Source of the DNA: Deltaproteobacteria bacterium
Lineage (GTDB): Bacteria; Desulfobacterota; Binatia; HRBIN30; CADEER01
Assembly (NCBI GenBank): GCA_029262455.1
Contig: JAJCZJ010000088.1
Coordinates: 334,273-398,272 of the forward strand
Length of the DNA: 64,000 nucleotides
Direction: 5' to 3'
Shown: in pieces, positions 24,737 to 36,840 of the stretch
Layout: every line of letters begins with the position of its first letter
How positions within the stretch are numbered: the stretch's first letter is position 1
Translations under genes and position numbers: made by a program
The notes under the pieces: generated by a model
What the model was told of the DNA's origin: nothing
Database searches by the model: none
What the model saw: the letters and a program-made list of their open reading frames with translations, nothing else

Positions 24737-26578
24737 CTATTGCGAAAGTCCGAGAATCTCAATCGCGTTTTTCCATGCGACACGCTCGCCAGCATCCGCG
24801 GCGACCGCAATACCGCAGGCGCCAGCAGCTGGATGACCCAGGCCAGCTCCAGTCGTTTCCATCGTTCCGCGGCATGTGTTCGCAAAGGATCGCTGTACCC
24901 CGGCCGGGCCCATCAGACCGTGGCACCATGCCCGATACGAATTCTCCGCACACCCGCTATCAACCCTGATGTCTGTACCCAGGACAATCTGGGTCGGATA
25001 GTCCGCGACGAATTGCCGCAAAATACATCCCGTATCGGCGAGGATCGGTTGGGCCAGGTCGACGCTCAAGCCGGCATCCAAGACAACCCGCAGTCCCACC
25101 AGATCGTCTTGAAAATAGCCCAAGTGAGCCAAGACGATCCTGCGGCGCGCCTGCGGTGTCAGATTCGCAACTGCCCACGCTGCGAAGTCGAATACCGCCG
25201 CCTTCGCGACGTCGTGACATGGCTGCAATCCGCCACCGGTGCTTGTGCACATTTCCGGACTCGTGATCCAGGGGATTGCGTGCGTCAGCAGCGGCACGGC
25301 GCGGACCTCGACGAGCTCGCGCACGAGATCTCGCCACGGCGCATCCATCAACGGGAACCGCGCACCTGGTTCGGTCATGCAATCCCGGTTCGGCGTCGTG
25401 CTCGCCGGCGAGGGACTGCACCACCCGGCGAGGCGATTATACGCGCCGGCCCACCGGGTCGTGTCCAATGTTCCATTGTCGAAGGTTGCCCCAGCATGGT
25501 CTTTAAAGCCGACGGCTCCCGCCGCTAGCCACTGGTCCGCGTCCGCCAGACAAGCTGTCAGCCATCCCGGGTCCGACGCCGGCGTGTCTTTGAGGCAGTC
25601 GAGACTTGCCAGGAACACCACTTGATCAGAACGCTCGGCAGTCAACCGGTTGGTTTCGTTCTGTACATCAAACAGCTCCGCCCCGGGCGGGATCGGATCA
25701 CCGAGAGTTGCCGCGATCGCGTAGTGCTCGAGTGATGCTGTCGCAACCAGCATGTTTCCGTCCTGCAACGATTCCACGTCCTCCGCTGCACACGGTTCTG
25801 CTTCCGCGCAGTGCGTATGGAAGTCGGCCAATGAATACGGCCCCGGATCGAGCCCCGGATCGTAGCCGTCGCCCGAGCACGCCACTGAACCGACGCTGCA
25901 GTCGTTGGCGCAGCCGTCGCTATCGACCAAATTTCCGTCATCACATACTTCCGGCGACTCGGTGATCCCGTTGCCACAGGTCTGCGCCGGGCAGATCGCT
26001 GGTTCCGGAGCGCGCTTAGCCCTGAACCGATCGAGCTCGTTTTTGCTGATATCGCCGCCAAATTCCGCACAGAGGCGACGTGCGCCGATATGAAAGTGAA
26101 CCTGCGCAGAGTCGTGCGGTCCACCGATCTTCCACGGCCAGCCCTCGCCGCGTACAACGACCTTCATCTTGCGTTGCGTCGACGTCTGTTTGTAGACGAT
26201 CTTCTTAACGCCACCCCGCGTGCCATCGCGGTCCTTGTAAAAGTAACCCTTCGTACCAGGAGGATTGCCGAGTCCGCGCCACATGGCCGGATCGAGCGTT
26301 ATCAGCTCGGAACGCGCCGCATTCGCTCCGTTCCAAACAAACAGCAACTGGGACGGCAAGACGGTCGGATCGTACGGGAAGGTCGTAACAATCTGCTTGC
26401 TGGCCCGAAGCTTGATCGAATGCCTCGACGGATTCTTGCGCGTGTCAGCACGAAGCTGATCTCCTTCAACCGGGATGTGCTCGACGATCTGCGCTTGCAC
26501 CGACGCCACGCCACGCAACCCGATCAGGAACGCGAAAATGCCAACGATCGAAAAAAACGTTCGTACTAAGGCGCGCAT
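24737..26578 (-). CDS. secreted DUF4215-amidohydrolase-like protein
   Basis: 613 residues from ATG 26578, chosen for its GGAGGAG and the signal peptide starting there (MRALVRTFFSIVGIFAFLIG, ending near VQA). Residues 30-195 are an unassigned beta-rich domain. A Cys-rich DUF4215-type repeat follows with CGNGITESPEVCDDGN and CANDCS. The rest resembles an amidohydrolase TIM barrel: DFHTHCAE, GAVGFKDHAG, LTHAIPWI, VLAHLGYF, VLGTDIRVDSG and a final KNAIEILGL. These positions supply the His, Lys and Asp metal ligands. Substrate unknown. Cell-surface or periplasmic location is inferred. It is 73 bases downstream of the six-gene overlapping operon. Confidence 0.78.
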   Translation of the reverse strand: MRALVRTFFSIVGIFAFLIGLRGVASVQAQIVEHIPVEGDQLRADTRKNPSRHSIKLRASKQIVTTFPYDPTVLPSQLLFVWNGANAARSELITLDPAMWRGLGNPPGTKGYFYKDRDGTRGGVKKIVYKQTSTQRKMKVVVRGEGWPWKIGGPHDSAQVHFHIGARRLCAEFGGDISKNELDRFRAKRAPEPAICPAQTCGNGITESPEVCDDGNLVDSDGCANDCSVGSVACSGDGYDPGLDPGPYSLADFHTHCAEAEPCAAEDVESLQDGNMLVATASLEHYAIAATLGDPIPPGAELFDVQNETNRLTAERSDQVVFLASLDCLKDTPASDPGWLTACLADADQWLAAGAVGFKDHAGATFDNGTLDTTRWAGAYNRLAGWCSPSPASTTPNRDCMTEPGARFPLMDAPWRDLVRELVEVRAVPLLTHAIPWITSPEMCTSTGGGLQPCHDVAKAAVFDFAAWAVANLTPQARRRIVLAHLGYFQDDLVGLRVVLDAGLSVDLAQPILADTGCILRQFVADYPTQIVLGTDIRVDSGCAENSYRAWCHGLMGPAGVQRSFANTCRGTMETTGAGLGHPAAGACGIAVAADAGERVAWKNAIEILGLSQ

Positions 26579-26651
26579 CAAGACTCCTCCCGCGCGACGA
26601 CCCTCGCCCGATTCACCCGTCGGCACAAGGGAAAACACTGAATCAGGCCGC

Positions 26652-27485
26652 TCAACCGGCCGCCAGCAGCGCACCAGCAATCCGGCGACCGCCCTCGTCC
26701 AAACCTTTGTAGTTGGCAATGTGGGACGGCATCTTCGCCAGAGCTTCCGCCAAAACGGCGCGTTGCCCCAGATCCAACTCCGAAAACTTGTACAAATAGA
26801 CGCGGATCAGAAACAACGATGCCGAGACTCCGGGAAATGGCACGGTGACCTGGCGTTCGACACGCAGCCAGCCGTCGCTGGCACCCTGCCAACTCGAACG
26901 CGGCCAGCGGTCGGGGTGGTGATCGAGTCGATCGTCGGCGGTGATCGTCCAAACGAATCGCACGTACGGTCCACGCTCGAACATCGCAGCGACCATGGAT
27001 TCCACAACATCCGATCGCTTGGCAAAGTCAGGCACCGGTCCATGGATCGCTCGAAAGTCAGCGCCGACAATCCTCTCCGGTCGCCAGCTGCTCGGAAAGG
27101 AAACACAGACCGCAACCGCTCGTTCGCGCTCGCCCTCTCGTCGATGTAGGACCGCAAAGTCTTCCTGAACGAGGTGCGCGAGGTCCGCGTACGACGTGAT
27201 CTCTGCGTCAAGCAACTTCGGATGCTCACCACCAACCGTCGCCCTCATCCAAGCCAAGACGGTCGTGTGACAATCGCCCAGACTCTCATCGTCGAGCACC
27301 TGGAACGAATCCGAGGCGCTAGCGCGAGCCGAGCGATAACGCTCCAGTCTGTCGTCGACTTGGAAGTAGTGTTGGTCGCGTTCTCCGTTGCCGAAATCCG
27401 TGCCCATCGGAAACAGTCCCGCCGACATGCGGTACGCGCCCGGCCGCACCGGAAAATAGCGCGCTGGTGAGTCCACAAAGCTCAC
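26652..27485 (-). CDS. haem-dependent oxidative N-demethylase-like (DUF3445)
   Basis: 277 residues. The pattern of the DUF3445 family is visible: FPMGTDFGNGERDQHYFQVDD, the segment around QEDFAVLHRREGERERAVAVC and SFPSSWRPERIVGADFRAIHGPVP (in parts), then FERGPYVRFVWTI and RVERQVTVPFP. The characterised member (HODM of Pseudomonas) uses a haem-PAS fold to demethylate dimethylamine with O2. The GTG start overlaps the kinase stop by four bases, making it the last gene of the GTPase operon. That is odd for a metabolic enzyme and suggests a haem/PAS-like sensing role or a coupled output. Confidence 0.85.
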   Translation of the reverse strand: MSFVDSPARYFPVRPGAYRMSAGLFPMGTDFGNGERDQHYFQVDDRLERYRSARASASDSFQVLDDESLGDCHTTVLAWMRATVGGEHPKLLDAEITSYADLAHLVQEDFAVLHRREGERERAVAVCVSFPSSWRPERIVGADFRAIHGPVPDFAKRSDVVESMVAAMFERGPYVRFVWTITADDRLDHHPDRWPRSSWQGASDGWLRVERQVTVPFPGVSASLFLIRVYLYKFSELDLGQRAVLAEALAKMPSHIANYKGLDEGGRRIAGALLAAG

Positions 27486-28987
27486 GGGTCACTGGGACGT
27501 AAGCGAAACCAGAACCGCGTACCGCCACCCGACATCGGCTCACATCCGAGCTCGCCACCCCATCGCTCGATGGTGATGCGACAAAAGTAGAGCCCGAGTC
27601 CCGCCTTGCCTTTCTTGTCGCCACGCCCCTGCGAGAGCTTTTCGAAGATCGTTTTCGCAAGGTCCGGGTCGATTCCCTCGCCCTGATCTTCGACGCAAAC
27701 AGTTACCCAGTCGCGGGCGCTCTCCACTCCGACCGACACTGTCGATCCGCGCGGACTGTAGCGCAAGGCATTCTCGATGAGGTTGAAGAGGACACGATCC
27801 AGTCGCGACTTCTCACCGACCACCCGGAGTGCGGCCTGGTCCAGAACATCGCAGCGCAACCCGACGCCGCGTTTGCCAAAGACCGGCACCATCGATTCCA
27901 CCGCCTCACGAACACAGCCGACGAGATCGGGCGCGCCTCCCGCATCGAAGCGAAAATCACTCAGATCTCGACGTTCGGCCGCAAAGACATCGAGAATCTC
28001 ACCGACCATCTCCTGCTGCCGAATCGATTGTCGCATCGCTGTCGTCGACAACTTCCGCAGCTGCGGTGGCAATTCGACGTCCTCGACCAACTGGAGAAAT
28101 CCTTGCATCGCCGTCGCTGGCCCGGACAGGTCGTGAACGATCGTATGCAGCAGCACTTCCTTGTGCTCGAGGTCGCGCAGCAGTTCGTAGTGACCCAAGC
28201 GTGCTTCACGTGCTTTCTGTAGAGTTTCGGTGGCGTCGCGATGGCGCGCCCCGAGGCGTTCGACCAACAGCAACGATCCACGCGGAAGCGCGATCGCCGT
28301 CGCTTCGAGATCGATAAAATCGCCGTCCGGCGTATCTTCCCGCCAAGGTCCAGAGCGCAACCGGTCGGGGCGCCGCTCGTGCCAATGCGGGTCGGCATCG
28401 ATCAAAAAGTTCTCGAGAAAGGGCGACATCTCCGACGGATTGGCGACACCATCGGCGAGCGGGAAGAGAGCCAACGCCCAATCCGGTGGCGTCCCTACCA
28501 CCGAAAAGCTCCCGTCCGGGCGCCGCGCCAGGGCCAGAATCCCGAGCACGGAGTACAGTTCTGCCACCGAGCTCGCCGCCGCCGGGGCCGGTGATGCGTC
28601 GCTTTCACCGCCATTGCGCGCCAGCTGCAGCTCGTTGCGCAGTTGCTGGACGGACGCTTCGCCGCGCACTTCGCGCGTCGAATCGAGGAGGATGATCCAG
28701 TCCTCGGCGCCGTGCGGAACCAGGTGAACATCTGCAAACACACCTTCTGTCTGCATGCGAAACCACTCGGCAGGCGTATCGGCCAGAGGCAACAGGCCGG
28801 TCAGAAACGGTATCTGATCCGCGACCGCCAGCCCAGAAGAAAGCTCGCCGATGCCATACGCACGTAGCGAACCCCCCCATCGCAGAGCATTGCCATCGCT
28901 GTCCGACGTGACAAACGCCGGGCGACGCGACCGAATCACCGCGCGCGCAAGGGCTGACGCAACCGTCTCGGGAACATTGTCCCTCAT
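27482..28987 (-). CDS. soluble sensor histidine kinase of the GTPase operon
   Basis: 501 residues, no transmembrane segment. Residues 20-120 and 140-250 look like two PAS-related sensory modules (RFADVHL-like GVFADVHLVPHGAEDWIILLD; DADPHWHERRPDRL). A coiled linker leads to KEVLLHTIVHDLSGP with phospho-acceptor His285, then an ATPase domain (NLIENALRYSPRG, DQGEGID, GLGLYFC). The HDLSGP variant of the H-box matches a group of kinases I associate with Rab-like GTPase neighbours in cyanobacteria and other phyla. It overlaps the GTPase gene (ATGA) and the HODM-like gene (GTGA). Confidence 0.9.
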   Translation of the reverse strand: MRDNVPETVASALARAVIRSRRPAFVTSDSDGNALRWGGSLRAYGIGELSSGLAVADQIPFLTGLLPLADTPAEWFRMQTEGVFADVHLVPHGAEDWIILLDSTREVRGEASVQQLRNELQLARNGGESDASPAPAAASSVAELYSVLGILALARRPDGSFSVVGTPPDWALALFPLADGVANPSEMSPFLENFLIDADPHWHERRPDRLRSGPWREDTPDGDFIDLEATAIALPRGSLLLVERLGARHRDATETLQKAREARLGHYELLRDLEHKEVLLHTIVHDLSGPATAMQGFLQLVEDVELPPQLRKLSTTAMRQSIRQQEMVGEILDVFAAERRDLSDFRFDAGGAPDLVGCVREAVESMVPVFGKRGVGLRCDVLDQAALRVVGEKSRLDRVLFNLIENALRYSPRGSTVSVGVESARDWVTVCVEDQGEGIDPDLAKTIFEKLSQGRGDKKGKAGLGLYFCRITIERWGGELGCEPMSGGGTRFWFRLRPSDP

Positions 28988-29487
28988 TGCGTAACCATGG
29001 CAGCGATCTTCTCGAAGGCAGCCTCCACGCCCTCAGCGTTCAGCGCGCTGGTCGTAAGCCAGCACCAACCGTCTTCGCTCAACGCCGACAGCTGTTTGTC
29101 GTCGATCTCCCACGACGAACGAAGATCCGATTTATTGACGACCAGCAGACACGGTGCACCTGGCGTCATCTCGGCTGCCAGATCGCGCAGACGAATCGCG
29201 GTCTCGAGCGTCGCACCGCGCGTGCCGTCCGCCACAATCAAGTGGCCCGAAGCACCGCGCAAGTACGTCGCACGCAGGTTGTTGAAGTCATCCTCTCCCT
29301 GAAGATCCCAAAGGATCAGGTTGACGTCTCCCCGTGCCTCGACGGCCACAACTTTTCGGTCGATCTTTACTCCAACGGTGGTGAGGTACTTTTCCGAGAA
29401 AAGTCCATCGACAAAGCGCTGCACCAAGCTTGTCTTGCCGACGGCAAAGGCGCCGAGCATGCAGATCTTCTTCTGAGTCGCGGCCAT
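28984..29487 (-). CDS. Rab/Ras-like small GTPase
   Basis: 167 residues, a single G domain. G1 is GAFAVGKT (12-19), switch I has EKYLTTVGVKID with Thr37, G3 is DLQGE (61-65), G4 NKSD (118-121), G5 TSA (146-148). In Ras the residue after the G3 Gly is the catalytic Gln; here it is Glu65, so hydrolysis may depend on a partner. No prenylation-type tail. It belongs to the bacterial Rab-like group that I associate with sensor operons, distinct from Myxococcus MglA by its motifs. The start overlaps the OmpA-domain gene stop by one base (TGATG). Confidence 0.92.
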   Translation of the reverse strand: MAATQKKICMLGAFAVGKTSLVQRFVDGLFSEKYLTTVGVKIDRKVVAVEARGDVNLILWDLQGEDDFNNLRATYLRGASGHLIVADGTRGATLETAIRLRDLAAEMTPGAPCLLVVNKSDLRSSWEIDDKQLSALSEDGWCWLTTSALNAEGVEAAFEKIAAMVTQ

Positions 29488-31217
29488 CAGCCTTTTGGCT
29501 GCACGCGCAGGGTCACACTGCGGTTCTCGGCGTCAGCGCGATCCTCCGGGGCGGCAATACGGTCGAGATCGCCACGCCCTTCTACGTCGAGCGCCATCGT
29601 CACACCACCCGCCATCAACGCGTCCTGTACATGTCGGGCGCGCTGCAGGCTGAGTTCGAGGTTGGGAACACTCGAACCGCTTCCGTCCGATCGACCGATC
29701 AACCCGAGTTCGATCGACACCCCAAGCTCGCCGGCCAGTCGCTGCAATTCGGCGACATCGGATACGACCGTCGCCAAATCTTCCACGGGTTCAAAAGATT
29801 TCGCTCCAAAATGCAGGCGACGGCCATCGACGCGCGACACAGCCGCTGCGTACTGGCTGGCAGTCACATCGACCACGCCGCTGGCATCGATCTCACGAAC
29901 GCCGGGAACAGCTCGTGCAAGAGTCAGCGCCTGAGTCATCCAGCTGTGCGGCGCTTCGCCGCGCAGCAGTAGCCGATCCCCGTCCAGATCCACGTCCACC
30001 CCCGTCGGCGGTGACAGAATCTGTCGAGCTCGAGCCAAGACGAGCTCCGGTTCGAGAGATTGATACGGTTGCCAACGGGCATCGATCCGCGCCGGGTCGA
30101 TCCCCGCCGCTTCCGCAGAGTCGCCGGGCGAGGCCGCCAACGGATCTCGTAGCCCCCGCACCATCCCACCGCTCAACGATGTGCGGCGCGCATCGGTCAC
30201 CACCACGCCGGGCTGCATCTGTAGAGTGTCGAGGTAGTCCTGCCAACGCCACCGCGATTGCAACGATAACCAGGACCAAAGCGCAATCCCGATGATGCTG
30301 GCAACCAAGACAACCCAAAACCACTTCGGCAATGCCATGGTCGCGTCATCTTCGGCGTATTGCGCGGCAAGGCAGCGCTCCAGCTGATCCCGCGTCGGCT
30401 CAAATGGCGCAGTATCGCCGCTGAACTTCTCGAACGCGTAGCCGTACTCGCGATGCAAACTCTCGACCGTAGAAACCAGTGCCTCGCGTAGTTCAACAGG
30501 CGGCTGTCCACGGACGACCGCTGCCAGCACCGCACCCGGACCATGCTCGAGTACCACGGTCAGATCGCCTAGTCGCAATGAGTCCAGCCCCTGACCCCGC
30601 GGGCCCTCGAAGGAGTCGTGCACAAAGTCCTGAATCGCCGTAAGCATCGCGGAGATGACGTCGGCATCCGGCGACTCCACGGATTCCGCAACCACGTGCT
30701 CGAGCAAGAGCCCCGTCTCGCGGTGAATCAGGAAAACCTGCTCGACGCGGTAAATCAGGCTGTGCTTCAGGACAACCTCGGCGAACGGTCGCCCCGAGCG
30801 GCGCGCTTCCAGACGCCACTTCAACCCCTTGGCAGTAAAGCTGTGTTCGAGCGAGCGATTGATCGACTGCACCAGCCCATGCAGAGACGCGGCGATCGAC
30901 TTGCGGATCGCCGGTCCGATGGCCGGGAAGATCGCATCGGCAACGGTATCGGGATCGTCACGGATGAAACTCCGCACCGCCTTCTCGACCGGTGGACCCA
31001 ACTCGAGGTCGAGTTCTTGTTCCTGCTCGGCACTATGGCGAAGCGCGGGAATCAGGACGTCGCCAACCGCCTGCGCGAACTTGGCAGGGTCGTCTAGACG
31101 CTCCTTCAGGCTCCGGATCTCTGCCTCTTCCGGACCAACCAGCAACGAACGTAGGGGCCCGAGGTCGTCCGGCTGCTGGCCGTTCTCCGGTGGAAGATCT
31201 GATGACGAGCGTGTCAC
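29487..31217 (-). CDS. inner-membrane protein with roadblock/longin-like, BON and OmpA domains
   Basis: 576 residues. Cytosolic residues 1-295 include a longin/roadblock-like stretch (about 155-262: VFLIHRETGLLLEHVVAE, MLTAIQDFVHDSF, LRLGDLTVVLEHGP). One transmembrane segment lies at 298-319 (WFWVVLVASIIGIALW). Outside follow a linker, a BON-like fold (about 388-447, GDRLLLRGEAPHSW, PGVREIDAS) and an OmpA-type peptidoglycan-binding domain (about 465-573, ELSLQRARHVQDAL, NRSVTLRV). Roadblock/longin folds are the usual partners of small GTPases, so this subunit could tie the GTPase to the cell wall. GTG start overlaps the coiled-coil gene (GTGA). Confidence 0.85.
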   Translation of the reverse strand: MTRSSSDLPPENGQQPDDLGPLRSLLVGPEEAEIRSLKERLDDPAKFAQAVGDVLIPALRHSAEQEQELDLELGPPVEKAVRSFIRDDPDTVADAIFPAIGPAIRKSIAASLHGLVQSINRSLEHSFTAKGLKWRLEARRSGRPFAEVVLKHSLIYRVEQVFLIHRETGLLLEHVVAESVESPDADVISAMLTAIQDFVHDSFEGPRGQGLDSLRLGDLTVVLEHGPGAVLAAVVRGQPPVELREALVSTVESLHREYGYAFEKFSGDTAPFEPTRDQLERCLAAQYAEDDATMALPKWFWVVLVASIIGIALWSWLSLQSRWRWQDYLDTLQMQPGVVVTDARRTSLSGGMVRGLRDPLAASPGDSAEAAGIDPARIDARWQPYQSLEPELVLARARQILSPPTGVDVDLDGDRLLLRGEAPHSWMTQALTLARAVPGVREIDASGVVDVTASQYAAAVSRVDGRRLHFGAKSFEPVEDLATVVSDVAELQRLAGELGVSIELGLIGRSDGSGSSVPNLELSLQRARHVQDALMAGGVTMALDVEGRGDLDRIAAPEDRADAENRSVTLRVQPKG

Positions 31218-31780
31218 CCCTTTTTCCGAGGACCGCCACTGAGCCGTTCGGCTATTTCAGAGAACATCACGGCGAGATCCGCACGATCCGCCTTGCGGTC
31301 CTGCAACTCGTCAGAAGCAGCGGAAAGAGCCGCCTTCGATGCGTCGGCCAAGCCTTGGATATCGTTGCTGAGGGACTCGCGATGTTTGGCAACGGCCTGA
31401 TCCAAAGCCGTCAGCGACGCGCGTAGATTCTGGTCTGCGCTGTCGAGTTTGGCGCTCAACTCGGATGACGACCGGTCGAGGTCGACCGAAAGATCCTTCG
31501 CCGAATCGACCCGAGCCTCGGTCTCGCGCTCAATCGCGACTCGCAACGCTTCGACGCGCGCGGCGTTTGCCTTTTCGGCTGCTTCGAAGCGCTTGCTGAT
31601 ATCGGCCTGCAGCGCCGAAAACTCCTTCGAAATCCTCTTTTCTAAACGTCCGAGCTGATCCTCGACGCTGCGCGCCTGCTCGCCGAAGAGAATCTCCCGG
31701 ACCTGGTCCAGACTGCTGGCGGTTGGTTCCGTTTGCTTCGTTGGGTTGCCGTTCTTACCGCCGTTCTTTGATGCACTCAT
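31214..31780 (-). CDS. coiled-coil protein of the GTPase operon
   Basis: 188 residues, highly charged and almost entirely predicted helix. After a disordered N-terminus (to about 22) the conserved-looking segment SLDQVREILFGEQARSVEDQ leads into heptads up to about 175. There is no catalytic motif. It likely serves as scaffold or dimerisation partner of the membrane protein or kinases. It overlaps the upstream response regulator-kinase (ATGA) and the downstream OmpA-domain gene (GTGA), so translation of all is coupled. Confidence 0.8.
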   Translation of the reverse strand: MSASKNGGKNGNPTKQTEPTASSLDQVREILFGEQARSVEDQLGRLEKRISKEFSALQADISKRFEAAEKANAARVEALRVAIERETEARVDSAKDLSVDLDRSSSELSAKLDSADQNLRASLTALDQAVAKHRESLSNDIQGLADASKAALSAASDELQDRKADRADLAVMFSEIAERLSGGPRKKG

Positions 31781-32943
31781 TGTTTCCTGCCTCCAGTAAC
31801 GTCCTTCGATTCGGGGAGATGTTCCAACAGATTCGGAAGCGATACTTGGAAGATAGCCCCGCCAGCCGGCCGATTCGCGGCCGAGATCGAACCGTCGAGA
31901 AGAGAAACCAAGCGTTTCGCAAGAGCGAGTCCAATACCCATACCGCCGGCGCGTCTCGTAGCCGAGCTATCACCCTGCCGAAAATCCTCGAATATAGTTC
32001 CCAGTATCTCTTCTGGGATGCCCTTGCCAGTGTCTGATACCTCGAGAGTCACACCGCGCCCGACCGCGGCTACGCGGACCCAGATATGTCCGGTCTCCGT
32101 AAACTTCCGTGAATTGTCCAAGAGCAGACCGACGAGACGACGCATCAAGTCCGGATCGGCCCGAACGATCCCCAGTTCCGCCTCAATCTCAACCTTGTAG
32201 ACGGGCCCAGCGACCCCATCGCTGCGATCTTCGACAGCGTCCAAAATCAGCTGCCCGAGGTCGGTGTCCGCGGCGTTCACCGAGCACGCCCCCGCGTCGA
32301 TATTGGTGAGCAAGAGAAGATTCTCCACAATCCCAGCCAGACCGCGGGCACTGTCCATCAGCCGTGTAAGATCCGACTCCTGTTCGGAGCCCTCCAAATC
32401 AGCCGCCAGAAGGTCGCCGTAGCCAAGAATCACGTGGAGCGGCGTGCGCAGCTCGTGTGAGACGTTCGCCAAAAAGTGCGTCTTCAGCTCGTAGACCTCC
32501 TCGAGCCGTCGCCGCATCTGTTTCTCGGTGGTTAGTTCGTGCCGCAAGCGCCTCGTCTCGAGACAGCGCTCGACGACGCGATGCAGGTCACCCGCGTCGA
32601 TCGGCTTGAGCAGATAGTCACAAGCCCCGTCTTTGAAGGTCTTGATGGCGCTGCGCAACGTCGGGAAGCCGGTTACGACGACGATGTCCGTCTCCGGGGC
32701 TTCGGATTTGATCCGACGGAGCAAATCCTCGCCCGACAGGGTGGGAAGATGCAGGTCTGTGAACACAATCGTCTGGCGGTGCTGATCAAACGAGCGCCAA
32801 GCGTCCCCACCGTCGGCGATCACGTCGAAGGGGATCGACATGATCTCGAGCGCTCGCTCCGCCATGAGACGGACAGTCTCGTCGTCGTCGACGAACAGAA
32901 TCCTATCGGGGCGCTCGCTCAGCGCATTCTTGCCTGGCTCCAT
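31777..32943 (-). CDS. response regulator-histidine kinase hybrid (receiver first)
   Basis: 388 residues from ATG 32943; the open frame continues upstream but the receiver begins at residue 13. Receiver: ILFVDDDE, phospho-acceptor Asp63 in FTDLHLP, and Lys113 in LLKPIDAG. A coiled linker leads to HisKA FLANVSHELRTPLHVILGYG (His163) and an ATPase domain (LLLDNSRKFTETG, DTGKGIPEE, GGMGIGLALAKRL). A receiver in front of the kinase suggests control by another kinase, possibly the one at the end of this operon. First gene of the six-gene overlapping operon, divergent from mnmE. Confidence 0.9.
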   Translation of the reverse strand: MEPGKNALSERPDRILFVDDDETVRLMAERALEIMSIPFDVIADGGDAWRSFDQHRQTIVFTDLHLPTLSGEDLLRRIKSEAPETDIVVVTGFPTLRSAIKTFKDGACDYLLKPIDAGDLHRVVERCLETRRLRHELTTEKQMRRRLEEVYELKTHFLANVSHELRTPLHVILGYGDLLAADLEGSEQESDLTRLMDSARGLAGIVENLLLLTNIDAGACSVNAADTDLGQLILDAVEDRSDGVAGPVYKVEIEAELGIVRADPDLMRRLVGLLLDNSRKFTETGHIWVRVAAVGRGVTLEVSDTGKGIPEEILGTIFEDFRQGDSSATRRAGGMGIGLALAKRLVSLLDGSISAANRPAGGAIFQVSLPNLLEHLPESKDVTGGRKQ

Positions 32944-33025: not shown

Positions 33026-34360
33026 ATGTATATACGAGACACCATCGCAGCGATCGCCACCGCAGCGGGGCCCAGCGCCGTCGGCATCGTCCGCATCAGC
33101 GGACCGGATGCAGCCCAGGTCGGCGCCAAGCTTTTCCAGCGCGATACCTGCCATTGGGAACCACACAAACTCACCCGAGTCGCGATCTACGGAACCGATG
33201 GGAAAACTCTCGACGACGGCCTCGCTTCACTGATGAGAAGCCCGAGAAGCTACACCGGCGAAGACGTCGTCGAGGTTCAGGGCCACGGCAGCCCCGCCGT
33301 CCTCCAAGCGACGCTCCAAGCCGCTTTTGCCGCCGGAGCCAGGCCCGCGGAGCCCGGGGAGTTCACAAAACGGGCCTTTTTGAACGGAAAACTCGACTTG
33401 GCGCAGGCCGAAGCGGTGATGGACCTGGTTCGATGTCGAACACCGAGCGCGGCGAACCTGGCTGCCGACCAGCTCTCCGGAGCTCTGTCGCGACATCTCG
33501 GATCGATCAAAAACCGTCTGATCGGGCTCAAGGGGCACCTCGAGGTCTTGATCGATTTCACCGAAGAGGACGTCGATCTCGACCCAGATGCCGTGACCAG
33601 CTCCGCATCCGTGCTTCAACGAGATCTCGAAGCCCTCCTAAAGACCTACCAGCGCGGCCGCATCTACAGAGAAGGCTTGCGGATTACCATCAGCGGGCGT
33701 CCGAACGTCGGAAAGTCCAGCCTCCTGAACGCCCTGGCGCGATCCGAACGCGCCATCGTCACCGATATCGCCGGAACCACGCGCGACGTCATCGAAGAGA
33801 GCATCGACCTCGGCGGTGTACCGGTCGTCATCAGCGATACAGCCGGAATGCGCCAAGCCACCGATCGAGTCGAGGAGATCGGCATCGAGCGGGCGCGCAA
33901 CTCAGCGGCTGCCGCAGATGTGGTACTCGCCGTCGTCGATCAGTCGCAACCGTATCAGGAGCCTCCAGAGTTGGGACACGCCGAGCAGCGAACCTTGTTG
34001 GTCATCAACAAGATCGATCTTCCCTCGCGGTGGGACGACGTCCAGAGTGCGGATGCCATTCGGGTATCGGCGCGAACCGGGCAGGGCATCGAAGACCTCG
34101 AGCGAGCAATCCTCGGAATCACCGAAGAACAATGGAGCGATGCCCTCCCACCACTGACCAACACGCGCCAACGCGACGCCATCGCCAAAGTCGCCGAGAG
34201 CGTCCGCCAAGCAACAGAAGCCGCGCGAGCCGGTCATCCCCCCGACATCGTCGCCGTCGACATCCAACTCGCCCTCGACCAACTCGGCACGGTCACCGGC
34301 GAGATCATCAACGACGACGTCCTCGACTTGGTGTTCCGCGAATTCTGCATGGGCAAGTAG
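33026..34360 (+). CDS. mnmE: tRNA U34 carboxymethylaminomethyl GTPase MnmE
   Basis: 444 residues from ATG 33026 (MYIRDTIAAIATAAG); longer frames upstream belong to the opposite gene. The N-terminal folate-binding TrmE domain, helical domain and inserted G domain are in order: ISGRPNVGKSSLLNA, DIAGTTRD, ISDTAGMR and NKID. The protein ends in FCMGK, the conserved C-terminal cysteine motif (usually FCIGK). With MnmG it installs cmnm5 on U34 of tRNAs reading split codon boxes. It normally neighbours mnmG but is separated by 5.6 kb here. Confidence 0.97.
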   Translation: MYIRDTIAAIATAAGPSAVGIVRISGPDAAQVGAKLFQRDTCHWEPHKLTRVAIYGTDGKTLDDGLASLMRSPRSYTGEDVVEVQGHGSPAVLQATLQAAFAAGARPAEPGEFTKRAFLNGKLDLAQAEAVMDLVRCRTPSAANLAADQLSGALSRHLGSIKNRLIGLKGHLEVLIDFTEEDVDLDPDAVTSSASVLQRDLEALLKTYQRGRIYREGLRITISGRPNVGKSSLLNALARSERAIVTDIAGTTRDVIEESIDLGGVPVVISDTAGMRQATDRVEEIGIERARNSAAAADVVLAVVDQSQPYQEPPELGHAEQRTLLVINKIDLPSRWDDVQSADAIRVSARTGQGIEDLERAILGITEEQWSDALPPLTNTRQRDAIAKVAESVRQATEAARAGHPPDIVAVDIQLALDQLGTVTGEIINDDVLDLVFREFCMGK

Positions 34361-34926: not shown

Positions 34927-36840
34927 ATGAGTCTATCGTCGAACCATCGAGCAGTCTTGCGGCGCGCGATTGGTATGGTCGCAGGATTATTCCTTCACAG
35001 CAGCTCGGCAATGGCAGGCATCGTACCCGCGGGTAGCGAGTTTCAGGTCAACTCTCACACGGCCGAAGAGCAGAGATTTCCGGCGATATCGTCGGCGGCC
35101 AATGGCGATACTGTAATCGTCTGGATGAGCCGTCTCCAGGACGGCAGTTCCGAAGGAATCTTCGGCCAACGCTACGCCAGTGATGGCTCCGCATTGGGTA
35201 CCGAGTTTCAAGTCAACACCTACACGCCAGATTACCAGGGTGATCCGGCAGTGTCGTCGGCAGCCAACGGCGACTTTCTTGTCGTGTGGCACAGCGTCGG
35301 CCAGGACGGCGATGACGAAGGCGTCTTCGGTCAGCGGTACGCCAGCGACGGCTCGCAGCGCGGCAGCGAGTTCCAGGTCAACACCTACACATCGCACTTC
35401 CAGGGGAGGCCTGCTGTGGCAGTCGCCTCCAATGGTGACGTCGTCGTCGCATGGACCGGGCGAGATGCAAGCGGAAACGGTATTTTCGCGCAGCGCTATA
35501 GCAGTAGCGGTCTCACCATGGGCTCTGAGTTTCAGGTCAACACTTACACGACGTCCGAGCAGATCCTCCCCACCATCGGCATCGAGACCGACGGCGACTT
35601 CGTTGTCGCCTGGTCAAGCCGTGACCAAGACACTGCCGACACCTTCTACGGTGTGTTCGCGCAACGCTACGCCAGCGACGGCTCGCAGCGCGGAGATGAG
35701 TTCCAAGTCAACGACTTCACGCCGGACGACCAAATAGCTCCTGGGGTAACCGTTGCAGCCGATGGCGACTTCGTCATCACCTGGCTGAGCAGCCTTCAGG
35801 ACGGTAGCGACACCGGCGTCTTCGCCCGGCGCTACGCCAACGATGGCTCAAGGATCGGGGCCGAGTTTCAGGTCAATTCCTACACGACCGGTCGCCAGTA
35901 TCGGGCGGCGGTCGCCGGGGCCGCCGACGGAGATTTTGTCGTTACCTGGGAGTCCCGGGGCGGCCAAGACGGCCATGAGGACGGTGTGTTTGCACAGTGT
36001 TACGACAGTGATGGCTCAAGGCTCGGGGCCGAGTTTCAGGTCAATTCCTACACAACGGACGATCAGGACAGTGTCGCTGTAGCAAGCTCAGCCGACGGCA
36101 ATGTCGTGGTCGTGGTCTGGGACAGCGCGGGGCAGGACGGCAACACGGATGGCGTGTTCGCACAGCGTTATACAATGCCCACGCCGACACCGACTCCCAC
36201 AGACATCGATGGTGACGGTGTATTGAATACCGTCGAGAGTTCCGGTCCGAACGGCGGCGACGCCAACGACGACGGTACCCAAGACGAGGTGCAAGAAGAG
36301 GTATCGAGTCTACCACTGCCGAATGGAGATTTTATCACCATGGTCACGTCGGGAGACTGTGGCCCGAACATGGTTGTGGAGACCTTCGGCGAACACGAAC
36401 TCGGCCACGATCCAGGCTTCTCCTACCCCTTCGGTCTGATCGGCTTCGAGTTGTCCTGTCCGCAACCTGGGGCGAGCGCCGACATCGTATTGCTATTCCA
36501 CGGCGCAAGCGATCTGTCGGAGGCAATTTATCGAAAGTTCGGCCCGCTGGCGCCGCTATTCGGTCCACCTGAGTTCTACACCCTGCCTGGAGTCACCTTC
36601 GGGACGACGGTGCTCGCCGGTGAAACCGTTGCCACAGTGCACCTCTCACTGACAGACGGAATGCTCGGCGACGACACGCCCGTCGATAGTCTCATCGTCG
36701 ACCAAGGCGGTCCGGCTTTTCCGATCGTCACCCCAGCACCGGCACTGTCTAGTCGTATGATTCTCGTCGGCGTAGCGATCTTACTCGCGATTTCATCCCT
36801 CGCATTGTGGCGGCGGCGCAGCCGGCGCACGAGCGCTTGA
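34927..36840 (+). CDS. secreted seven-repeat surface protein with C-terminal sorting signal
   Basis: 637 residues. A signal peptide (about 1-31) is followed by seven tandem repeats of 52-57 residues (about 34-415), each with GxEFQVNTYT, NGDFVVAW and GVFAQRYASDG. Then come a Thr-Pro linker, a Ca-binding-like Asp-rich segment (DIDGDGVLNTVE, DANDDGTQDEVQ) and a choice-of-anchor-U-like domain (SYPFGLIGFELSCPQPGASA, DGMLGDDTPVDSLIVDQGGP). The end (PALSSRMILVGVAILLAISS then WRRRSRR) is a Pro-x-x-Ser, transmembrane, Arg cluster of the IPTL/PEP-CTERM kind. This suggests export and processing by an exosortase-like system. GAGAGGGGTGAG precedes the start. The ligand is unknown. Confidence 0.85.
   Translation: MSLSSNHRAVLRRAIGMVAGLFLHSSSAMAGIVPAGSEFQVNSHTAEEQRFPAISSAANGDTVIVWMSRLQDGSSEGIFGQRYASDGSALGTEFQVNTYTPDYQGDPAVSSAANGDFLVVWHSVGQDGDDEGVFGQRYASDGSQRGSEFQVNTYTSHFQGRPAVAVASNGDVVVAWTGRDASGNGIFAQRYSSSGLTMGSEFQVNTYTTSEQILPTIGIETDGDFVVAWSSRDQDTADTFYGVFAQRYASDGSQRGDEFQVNDFTPDDQIAPGVTVAADGDFVITWLSSLQDGSDTGVFARRYANDGSRIGAEFQVNSYTTGRQYRAAVAGAADGDFVVTWESRGGQDGHEDGVFAQCYDSDGSRLGAEFQVNSYTTDDQDSVAVASSADGNVVVVVWDSAGQDGNTDGVFAQRYTMPTPTPTPTDIDGDGVLNTVESSGPNGGDANDDGTQDEVQEEVSSLPLPNGDFITMVTSGDCGPNMVVETFGEHELGHDPGFSYPFGLIGFELSCPQPGASADIVLLFHGASDLSEAIYRKFGPLAPLFGPPEFYTLPGVTFGTTVLAGETVATVHLSLTDGMLGDDTPVDSLIVDQGGPAFPIVTPAPALSSRMILVGVAILLAISSLALWRRRSRRTSA

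Follow-up and report, generated by a model that had tools for sequence, protein, structure and literature searches.

The window analysed here, a 64,000-nucleotide stretch of a deltaproteobacterial contig from a genome of 7.3 Mb, contains an operon centred on a small GTPase of the Rup type and a membrane protein whose cytosolic domain is predicted to have the longin fold. We identified six reading frames, all on the minus strand, spanning positions 32943 down to 26652 of the window. In order of transcription they encode a receiver-histidine kinase (P0001), a coiled-coil protein (P0002), a membrane protein (P0003), the GTPase (P0004), a soluble histidine kinase (P0005) and a protein similar to haem-dependent oxidative N-demethylases (HODM-like, P0006). 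The successive junctions read ATGA, GTGA, TGATG, ATGA and GTGA, with overlaps of 4, 4, 1, 4 and 4 bases. An earlier note on this DNA, made from the letters alone, had claimed six overlapping genes, and we confirmed all the frames and the five overlaps of 1 or 4 bases. Pfam supports the domains that it proposed for the two kinases (receiver, HisKA and HATPase in the first, HisKA and HATPase in the second), for the GTPase (Ras family) and for the last gene (HODM_asu-like). The operon is more than a chance arrangement, because its gene order is kept far beyond the source genome. By its GTPase motifs and its gene neighbourhood, the locus is a new member of Group 1 of the Rup systems (Wuichet and Sogaard-Andersen 2014, PMC4316618).

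The GTPase P0004 (28984..29487, 167 aa) is a single-domain protein of the Ras superfamily (PF00071, E 1.1e-27). It carries the motifs GAFAVGKT (G1), TVGVK, WDLQGE (G3), NKSD (G4) and TSA. Glu65 takes the place of the catalytic Gln after DxxG, and none of 77 GTPases from the loci that we scanned (see below) has a Gln at this position. Among 776 sequence matches to solved structures, the best 60 were Rab-type, with RABA1a at the top (E 2.7e-21); the protein had rightly been called Rab-like.

The membrane protein P0003 (29487..31217, 576 aa) is composed of N-terminal helices, the longin domain, one transmembrane helix and an OmpA-type C-terminus. The transmembrane helix (around residues 298-316, 30270..30326) was read by eye from the sequence KWFWVVLVASIIGIALWSW. 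The OmpA-type peptidoglycan-binding domain (residues 504-564, 29526..29708) is matched weakly in the window's copy, with PF00691 at E 2.2e-5 and 25.2 bits, just below the cut-off of 27.2. We nevertheless accepted this domain, as had been proposed, because an OmpA-type NCBIfam model matches all 24 rows of the full-length alignment, among them that of the window, at E ≤ 0.01. D511 and R526 are invariant in this alignment. Two further arginines, R135 and R157, are invariant in 40 aligned rows. No phage record matched the membrane protein.

We built an AlphaFold2 (AF2) model of the cytosolic part of P0003 from 40 aligned sequences, with an overall predicted local distance difference test (pLDDT) of 80.8 and a predicted template modelling score (pTM) of 0.57. 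Residues 154-288 of this model (30354..30758) form two strands, a helix, three strands and two helices, which is the longin topology (beta-beta-alpha-beta-beta-beta-alpha-alpha). The best VIA-align match of this region was Sec22b (Z 14.9, 2.4 Å over 124 of the 127 Sec22b residues), and it was followed by Ykt6 (Z 14.0), a chain of the CPLANE complex (13.5), VAMP7 (13.1) and the sigma chains of adaptors (about 12). Rab-handling and archaeal longins were matched as well, i.e., TRAPP (Z up to 11.2), Mon1-Ccz1 (10.5-11.0) and a Lokiarchaeal longin (10.9). The 50 VIA-align matches listed were longin-class chains, not PAS sensors. Foldseek agreed on the longin: MglB chains trailed with template modelling (TM) scores of 0.43-0.50 and root mean square deviations (rmsd) of 6.4-8.5, and an archaeal roadblock protein reached TM scores of 0.48-0.49 with an rmsd of around 4. 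As the model favours the longin, and MglB and roadblock chains score behind it, the roadblock was rejected as the best fold of this domain. The Pfam family Robl_LC7 had no match in any of the six proteins of the operon. The suggestion of a roadblock/longin-class fold, which had been made for the cytosolic part, is thus borne out by the model, which specifically predicts a longin. At the level of sequence, one of the 40 relatives matched Intu_longin_1 weakly (E 0.05), and a search of PDB sequences matched nothing longin-like to P0003. Longin domains have been described in eukaryotes and in Asgard archaea (PMC3521125, PMC10933270). An earlier mention of a bacterial longin may exist: a table of PMC4917890 enters longin and roadblock jointly as present in bacteria, and De Franceschi 2014 is cited for longin/roadblock in bacteria.

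The coiled-coil protein P0002 (31214..31780, 188 aa) belongs to the conserved part of the Rup system; no Pfam family matches it above the cut-off. Its N-terminus carries the motif L..VR.ILFG (around residues 24-50, 31631..31711), present in 86 of 93 coiled-coil relatives and common to the N-terminus of P0003. Aligned against each other with hhalign, the N-terminal alignments of P0002 and P0003 matched with a probability of 76 (E 2.2e-5), whereas the best of 30 column shuffles reached a probability of 2. The common motif suggests a joint assembly of the two proteins.

The soluble histidine kinase P0005 (27482..28987, 501 aa) carries two predicted PAS domains, of types that we call A and B, followed by HisKA and HATPase_c. 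A model of its residues 1-275 (pLDDT 86.9) shows the two PAS domains in tandem, and in Foldseek it is matched best by the LOV-PAS region of a Brucella kinase. Type A (residues 22-108, 28664..28924) was aligned by VIA-align with 2ykf, the sensor region of a sensor kinase (Z 10.2, 2.3 Å over 87 residues). Type B (residues 138-244, 28256..28576) was aligned with 1mzu, the photoactive yellow protein (PYP) domain of Ppr, with a middling score (Z 8.5, 2.9 Å over 99 residues). The N-termini of the outputs encoded downstream of the GTPase in other loci sort into the same two types. The A and B tandem was found in the kinase of the window and in the loci L047, L055 and L059, and L038 has the two types on two genes. 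In L046, one Rup GTPase is followed by four PAS matches, in the order A, A, B, B. The exit helix of type A carries a Gln (Gln115 in P0005) in all 20 non-redundant domains; in type B a Gln was found in 21 of 32 domains and an Arg in eight.

Behind these domains, the outputs vary between loci. Among 20 PAS-bearing outputs classed with Pfam, one of which (L054) is cut by the end of its contig, there are eight kinases, four class III cyclases, three GGDEF proteins, two HD proteins, two sigma-54 activators and one SpoIIE protein. We give counts for these 20 proteins rather than for a cruder set of 34 downstream proteins, in which at least six (those of L042, L055, L056, L058, L070 and L111) were wrong frames or unrelated genes. 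With constant PAS types and changing outputs, the GTPase module resembles a front end that can be plugged into many different outputs. We also considered tll1859 of Thermosynechococcus, a GGDEF/EAL protein that controls the direction of phototaxis (PMC9090330), as a possible output of this kind: passages of that paper give no link to Rup, and its genome neighbours were not inspected.

To place the locus among other genomes, we scanned genome contigs with an alignment of six membrane proteins. This gave 135 confirmed loci, all located by one pattern within a single conserved stretch. We kept 80 of them, 40 of which are rhizobial. Judging by the record titles, members of Acidobacteria, Deltaproteobacteria, Verrucomicrobia, Nitrospira, Gemmatimonadetes, Planctomycetota, gamma- and alphaproteobacteria, and Rhodothermales are among the kept loci. 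Neighbours were counted in loci with room on the contig, and only matches above 20 bits were accepted, so that L109 counts as a miss for the coiled coil. The coiled-coil gene precedes the membrane-protein gene, in the same orientation, in 31 of 32 non-rhizobial loci and in all 40 rhizobial ones. The GTPase gene follows the membrane-protein gene, again in the same orientation, in 36 of 38 non-rhizobial loci and in all 37 rhizobial ones; of the two remaining loci, L050 has a convergent GTPase and in L075 none was found. An output with PAS type A or B was found in 27 of 33 non-rhizobial loci and in 37 of 37 rhizobial ones. The families named in the earlier note hence co-occur across phyla as far as the coiled coil, the membrane protein, the GTPase and the output are concerned, but not the receiver-kinase and the HODM-like gene. 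The presence of GTPase-OmpA neighbourhoods in cyanobacteria, which the note had mentioned, was also supported: on a Nostoc plasmid, genes for a coiled coil, the membrane protein and the GTPase, and then a large gene, follow one another in the order of the window. The annotation of a Mesorhizobium record (WSM1497) reads, in order, hypothetical protein, OmpA family protein, Rab family GTPase and adenylate-guanylate cyclase.

The distance matrices of the GTPase and the membrane protein correlate across 45 loci (0.58, best of 2000 permutations 0.21); this set leaves out L043 (on the same contig as L032), all rhizobial loci except two, and short rows. The operon, the conservation of its genes and motifs, and their co-inheritance are computed facts. 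The distribution of the system is sporadic in the window's own phylum, where the full membrane protein is encoded in at least 14 of 395 genomes (counting that of the window); only three candidates were scored per genome, which makes this count a lower bound. The four membrane proteins nearest to that of the window come from records of other phyla (49-52% identity), a weak hint of horizontal transfer. The 40 rhizobial records (L060-L115) encode the coiled coil, a long OmpA protein, the Rab-like GTPase and a type A output, which mostly starts 3 bases after the GTPase gene. In L060 and in the plasmid pWSM1497 (L139) this output is a nucleotide cyclase. The rhizobia offer a cultured model for the system.

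Group 1 Rup was described, by computation, as a GTPase of the Ras superfamily without the Gln of G3, encoded together with a coiled-coil gene, a gene for a conserved domain with an inner-membrane helix and OmpA, and an output gene, the output being typically a kinase or a GGDEF/EAL protein with an invariant N-terminal Gln (PMC4316618). The same paper lists Cyanobacteria and Mesorhizobium loti within the group. The window matches this description in its GTPase lacking the Gln of G3, its coiled coil, its gene for a domain, a transmembrane helix and OmpA, and its kinase output. It differs in its tandem of PAS types A and B, in the receiver-kinase upstream and in the HODM-like gene downstream. Sections of PMC4316618 assign no fold to the cytosolic domain or to the N-terminus of the output, which we modelled as a longin and as PAS domains, respectively, and the range of outputs found here is wider, with class III cyclases, HD, sigma-54 and SpoIIE proteins. 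Gln115 of type A may be the invariant Gln of that paper. The earlier note had named no described function for such neighbourhoods. They were already in print as Group 1 Rup, but as of 2014 no Rup member was experimentally characterised (PMC4316618), and we found no later experimental work on Rup among the open-access papers listed by our searches. The Group 1 neighbourhood was therefore already known; the models of the longin and of the tandem PAS, the gene order across phyla, the range of outputs and the pattern of loss in helix alpha-1 of the longin, described below, are new here.

In both Mon1-Ccz1 and TRAPP, a joint alpha-1 surface binds the Rab (PMC5216073). In P0003, helix alpha-1 and its flanks (residues 183-206, 30600..30671) are a candidate GTPase-binding surface, on the grounds of their conservation and of their erosion in some congeners. 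Twelve positions of this region are conserved in at least 80% of 36 relatives (L047, L050, L061 and L075, four of the 40 rows, were left out of this linked set). Three congeners, G001, G002 and G003 (loci L035, L036 and L034), have kept only the coiled coil and a longin protein with the transmembrane helix and without OmpA. Genome searches found no Rup gene in G001 or G002. A GTPase-like match in G003 was rejected as a Rup: it lies in a frame of 939 aa, of which the 120 bases inspected read as leucine-rich repeats. In these three genomes alpha-1 retains 0, 1 and 1 of the 12 conserved positions in a first alignment, and 2, 2 and 3 in a second one (Fisher p 0.0026, 0.00086 and 0.01), whereas 42-44 of 62-63 conserved positions are retained elsewhere in the region. 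Two further genomes, G159 and G310, have a membrane-protein locus without a GTPase and an intact alpha-1 (10 of 12 positions), and a later genome search found their GTPase on another contig (E 3.9e-39 and 1.6e-60). The pattern of erosion is consistent with a contact between alpha-1 and the GTPase, and comes mainly from one genus.

We propose that the operon encodes a switch made of a wall-anchored longin scaffold, a GTPase and a PAS kinase, and we give this explanation a probability of around 0.55. Through its OmpA domain, the membrane protein would be held at the cell wall. It would cross the inner membrane once and present the longin domain inside the cell, where it would form a scaffold with the coiled-coil protein. 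Rup would bind the alpha-1 surface of the longin and be recruited to the envelope, where its nucleotide state may be controlled. GTP-loaded Rup would then act on the tandem PAS domains of P0005, switching the activity of this soluble kinase, and phosphate could pass from the kinase to the receiver of the first gene. We infer the scaffold, the coupling of the GTPase to the PAS domains, the direction of signalling and the sensing of the wall, as well as the contact between longin and GTPase.

Several observations weigh against this proposal. The longin assignment comes from one predicted model of one sequence, the longin is close to the PAS and roadblock folds, and a Pfam search for longins with the 40 relatives gave no significant match among the families listed (25 of 37). 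The contact with the GTPase is itself something that we infer, and the co-divergence of the two proteins would also follow from shared inheritance without contact; the nearest neighbours of the two agree in only 17 of 45 loci. The erosion of alpha-1 is essentially one event in one genus. The proteins of G001-G003 show a general relaxation and have no OmpA domain either, and the assemblies of these genomes are fragmented (95-97% complete). A further genome in which no GTPase was detected, G018, keeps seven of the 12 alpha-1 positions against 52 of 63 elsewhere (p 0.12). None of the three congeners that were searched contains the operon, and six of 33 non-rhizobial loci have no detected PAS output.

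The co-inheritance of these genes could arise without any contact between the longin and the GTPase, if the longin-like domain were a sensor of the PAS family acting through the coiled coil and the GTPase acted on the kinase only. The coiled coil and the longin protein do stay paired where no GTPase was found (L033-L036) and where the GTPase is convergent (L050, L127/L147), and the longin belongs to the PAS/GAF superfamily (PMC4917890). However, alpha-1 is eroded selectively where the GTPase is undetected, and longin-class chains, not PAS sensors, make up the 50 fold matches listed; we regard this explanation as rather doubtful. Others concern the residue that the GTPase lacks. The longin protein might be neither a receptor nor an exchange factor but an MglB-like GTPase-activating protein (GAP) that switches Rup off at the wall, with the Gln missing from all 77 GTPases supplied in trans. 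An unknown GAP was indeed proposed as the supplier of this residue (PMC4316618), and complexes containing roadblock or longin domains include GAPs besides guanine nucleotide exchange factors (PMC9481161). Yet the conserved Gln of type A sits in the PAS exit helix of the output and not in the longin protein, and nothing places the invariant R135 and R157 of the membrane protein near the nucleotide. We regard a role of the longin protein as a GAP as rather doubtful as well.

The position of the conserved Gln leads to a variant, in which the PAS region of the output is the GAP: the exit-helix Gln would complete the active site, and the output would both read and end the signal. Its invariance in type A fits this idea, as does the invariant Gln noted in the N-terminal region of the outputs in PMC4316618. 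But type B, which replaces type A in many loci, often lacks the residue, and the modelled position of the Gln in a long exit helix equally fits ordinary PAS signalling, so that we consider this variant unlikely. The overlapping junctions that run through all six genes might finally indicate a single pathway, in which haem oxidation is the signal sensed or produced. This is very improbable, given that HODM-like relatives occur in none of the other 85 scanned loci and that G001 and G002 keep the gene elsewhere in the genome.

The actinobacterial conservon (Cvn) consists of a kinase, an MglB-type roadblock protein, CvnC and an MglA-type GTPase. It resembles the window in that a small GTPase is encoded together with a kinase and a partner of the roadblock/longin class. 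In the window, in contrast, Robl_LC7 is not matched, the GTPase is nearest to Rabs, and the partner spans the membrane and carries a wall-binding domain. The polarity switch of Myxococcus, MglA and MglB, similarly combines a GTPase, a partner with a PAS-like fold and links to two-component proteins, but MglB is a free roadblock protein, whereas the model of the window's domain fits a longin far better. The Rab exchange factors Mon1-Ccz1 and TRAPP have longin domains that bind the Rab via helix alpha-1 (PMC5216073), as proposed for the window. Mon1 also has an extra N-terminal helix, as in the P0003 model at residues 145-152, but these eukaryotic longins form heterodimers. Leu35 of Rup apparently lies at what we take to be the place of the switch I lysine used by Mon1-Ccz1 (K38 of Ypt7).

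The longin assignment next to the bacterial GTPases nearest to Rabs is the most valuable part of these results. A predicted longin partner beside Rup GTPases in many phyla would provide the Rup system with its missing regulator, and a specific surface, helix alpha-1, is named. It would also be a tangible bacterial candidate, open to test, for where Rab-longin pairs originated. Group 1 Rup has been placed beside Rab, Ran, Ras and Rho, with a suggestion of gene transfer to eukaryotes (PMC4316618). PMC4915359 likewise gives Rup as the closest group to these GTPases, with trees that leave the relationship unresolved. Should bacterial GTPases closest to Rab, Ras, Rho and Ran be physically paired with a true longin, the Rab-longin partnership would be older than eukaryotes, and would be present in many phyla, Mesorhizobium included. 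A bacterium, and not the archaeal host alone, could then have passed it ready-made to the eukaryotic ancestor. We put this forward as a speculation with the odds against it.

The two ends of the operon do not belong to the conserved system. The interpretation given in the earlier note therefore stands for the Rab-like GTPase, the roadblock/longin-class fold and the existence of the neighbourhood elsewhere, and fails for the HODM-like gene and the receiver-kinase, which it had counted among the members. The receiver-kinase P0001 (31777..32943, 388 aa), the first gene, matches Response_reg, HisKA and HATPase_c above the Pfam cut-offs and is not conserved across loci. In three acidobacterial loci (L056, L065 and L071), a kinase gene matching P0001 occupies the position of P0001 and overlaps the start of the operon's coiled-coil counterpart from its upstream side; no PAS output was found downstream of their GTPase. 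The last gene, P0006 (26652..27485, 277 aa), matches PF11927, the haem-dependent oxidative N-demethylase family, over residues 102-266 (E 6.7e-30, 104.8 bits, cut-off 25). Among 86 scanned loci, only the window itself has a HODM-like relative. In the congeners G001 and G002, the gene and the longin gene lie on different contigs. We thus rejected it as a part of the pathway: it is a local neighbour in the operon, outside the conserved system.

The frame of the first gene stays open up to a GTG at 33174. We regard the ATG at 32943 as the sensible start, because the GTG would overlap the start of the divergent mnmE (ATG at 33026). The mnmE gene lies around 80 bases from the start of the operon, with yidC and jag nearby. 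A consensus scan for sigma-70-like promoters found none where 1.0 was expected, a result that says little. The operon region is flanked by a protein at 24737-26719 with a weak match to DUF4215 below the cut-off, and by one at 34927-36840 without a Pfam match, which is repetitive by eye. Among the other records, a genome of the window's phylum (G199) shares at least one identical stretch of 500 bases with L057, from a record titled Desulfarculales bacterium. A metagenome-assembled genome titled Klebsiella pneumoniae (L043/L032) shares its contig with G051, which belongs to the class of the window, and its title looks wrong. A giant variant of the membrane protein was found in G159 (L145:920-10267, contig G159:C59), where an open frame of 3116 codons starts with a Rup-type longin membrane protein; the GTPase of this genome is encoded on another contig (G159:C40).

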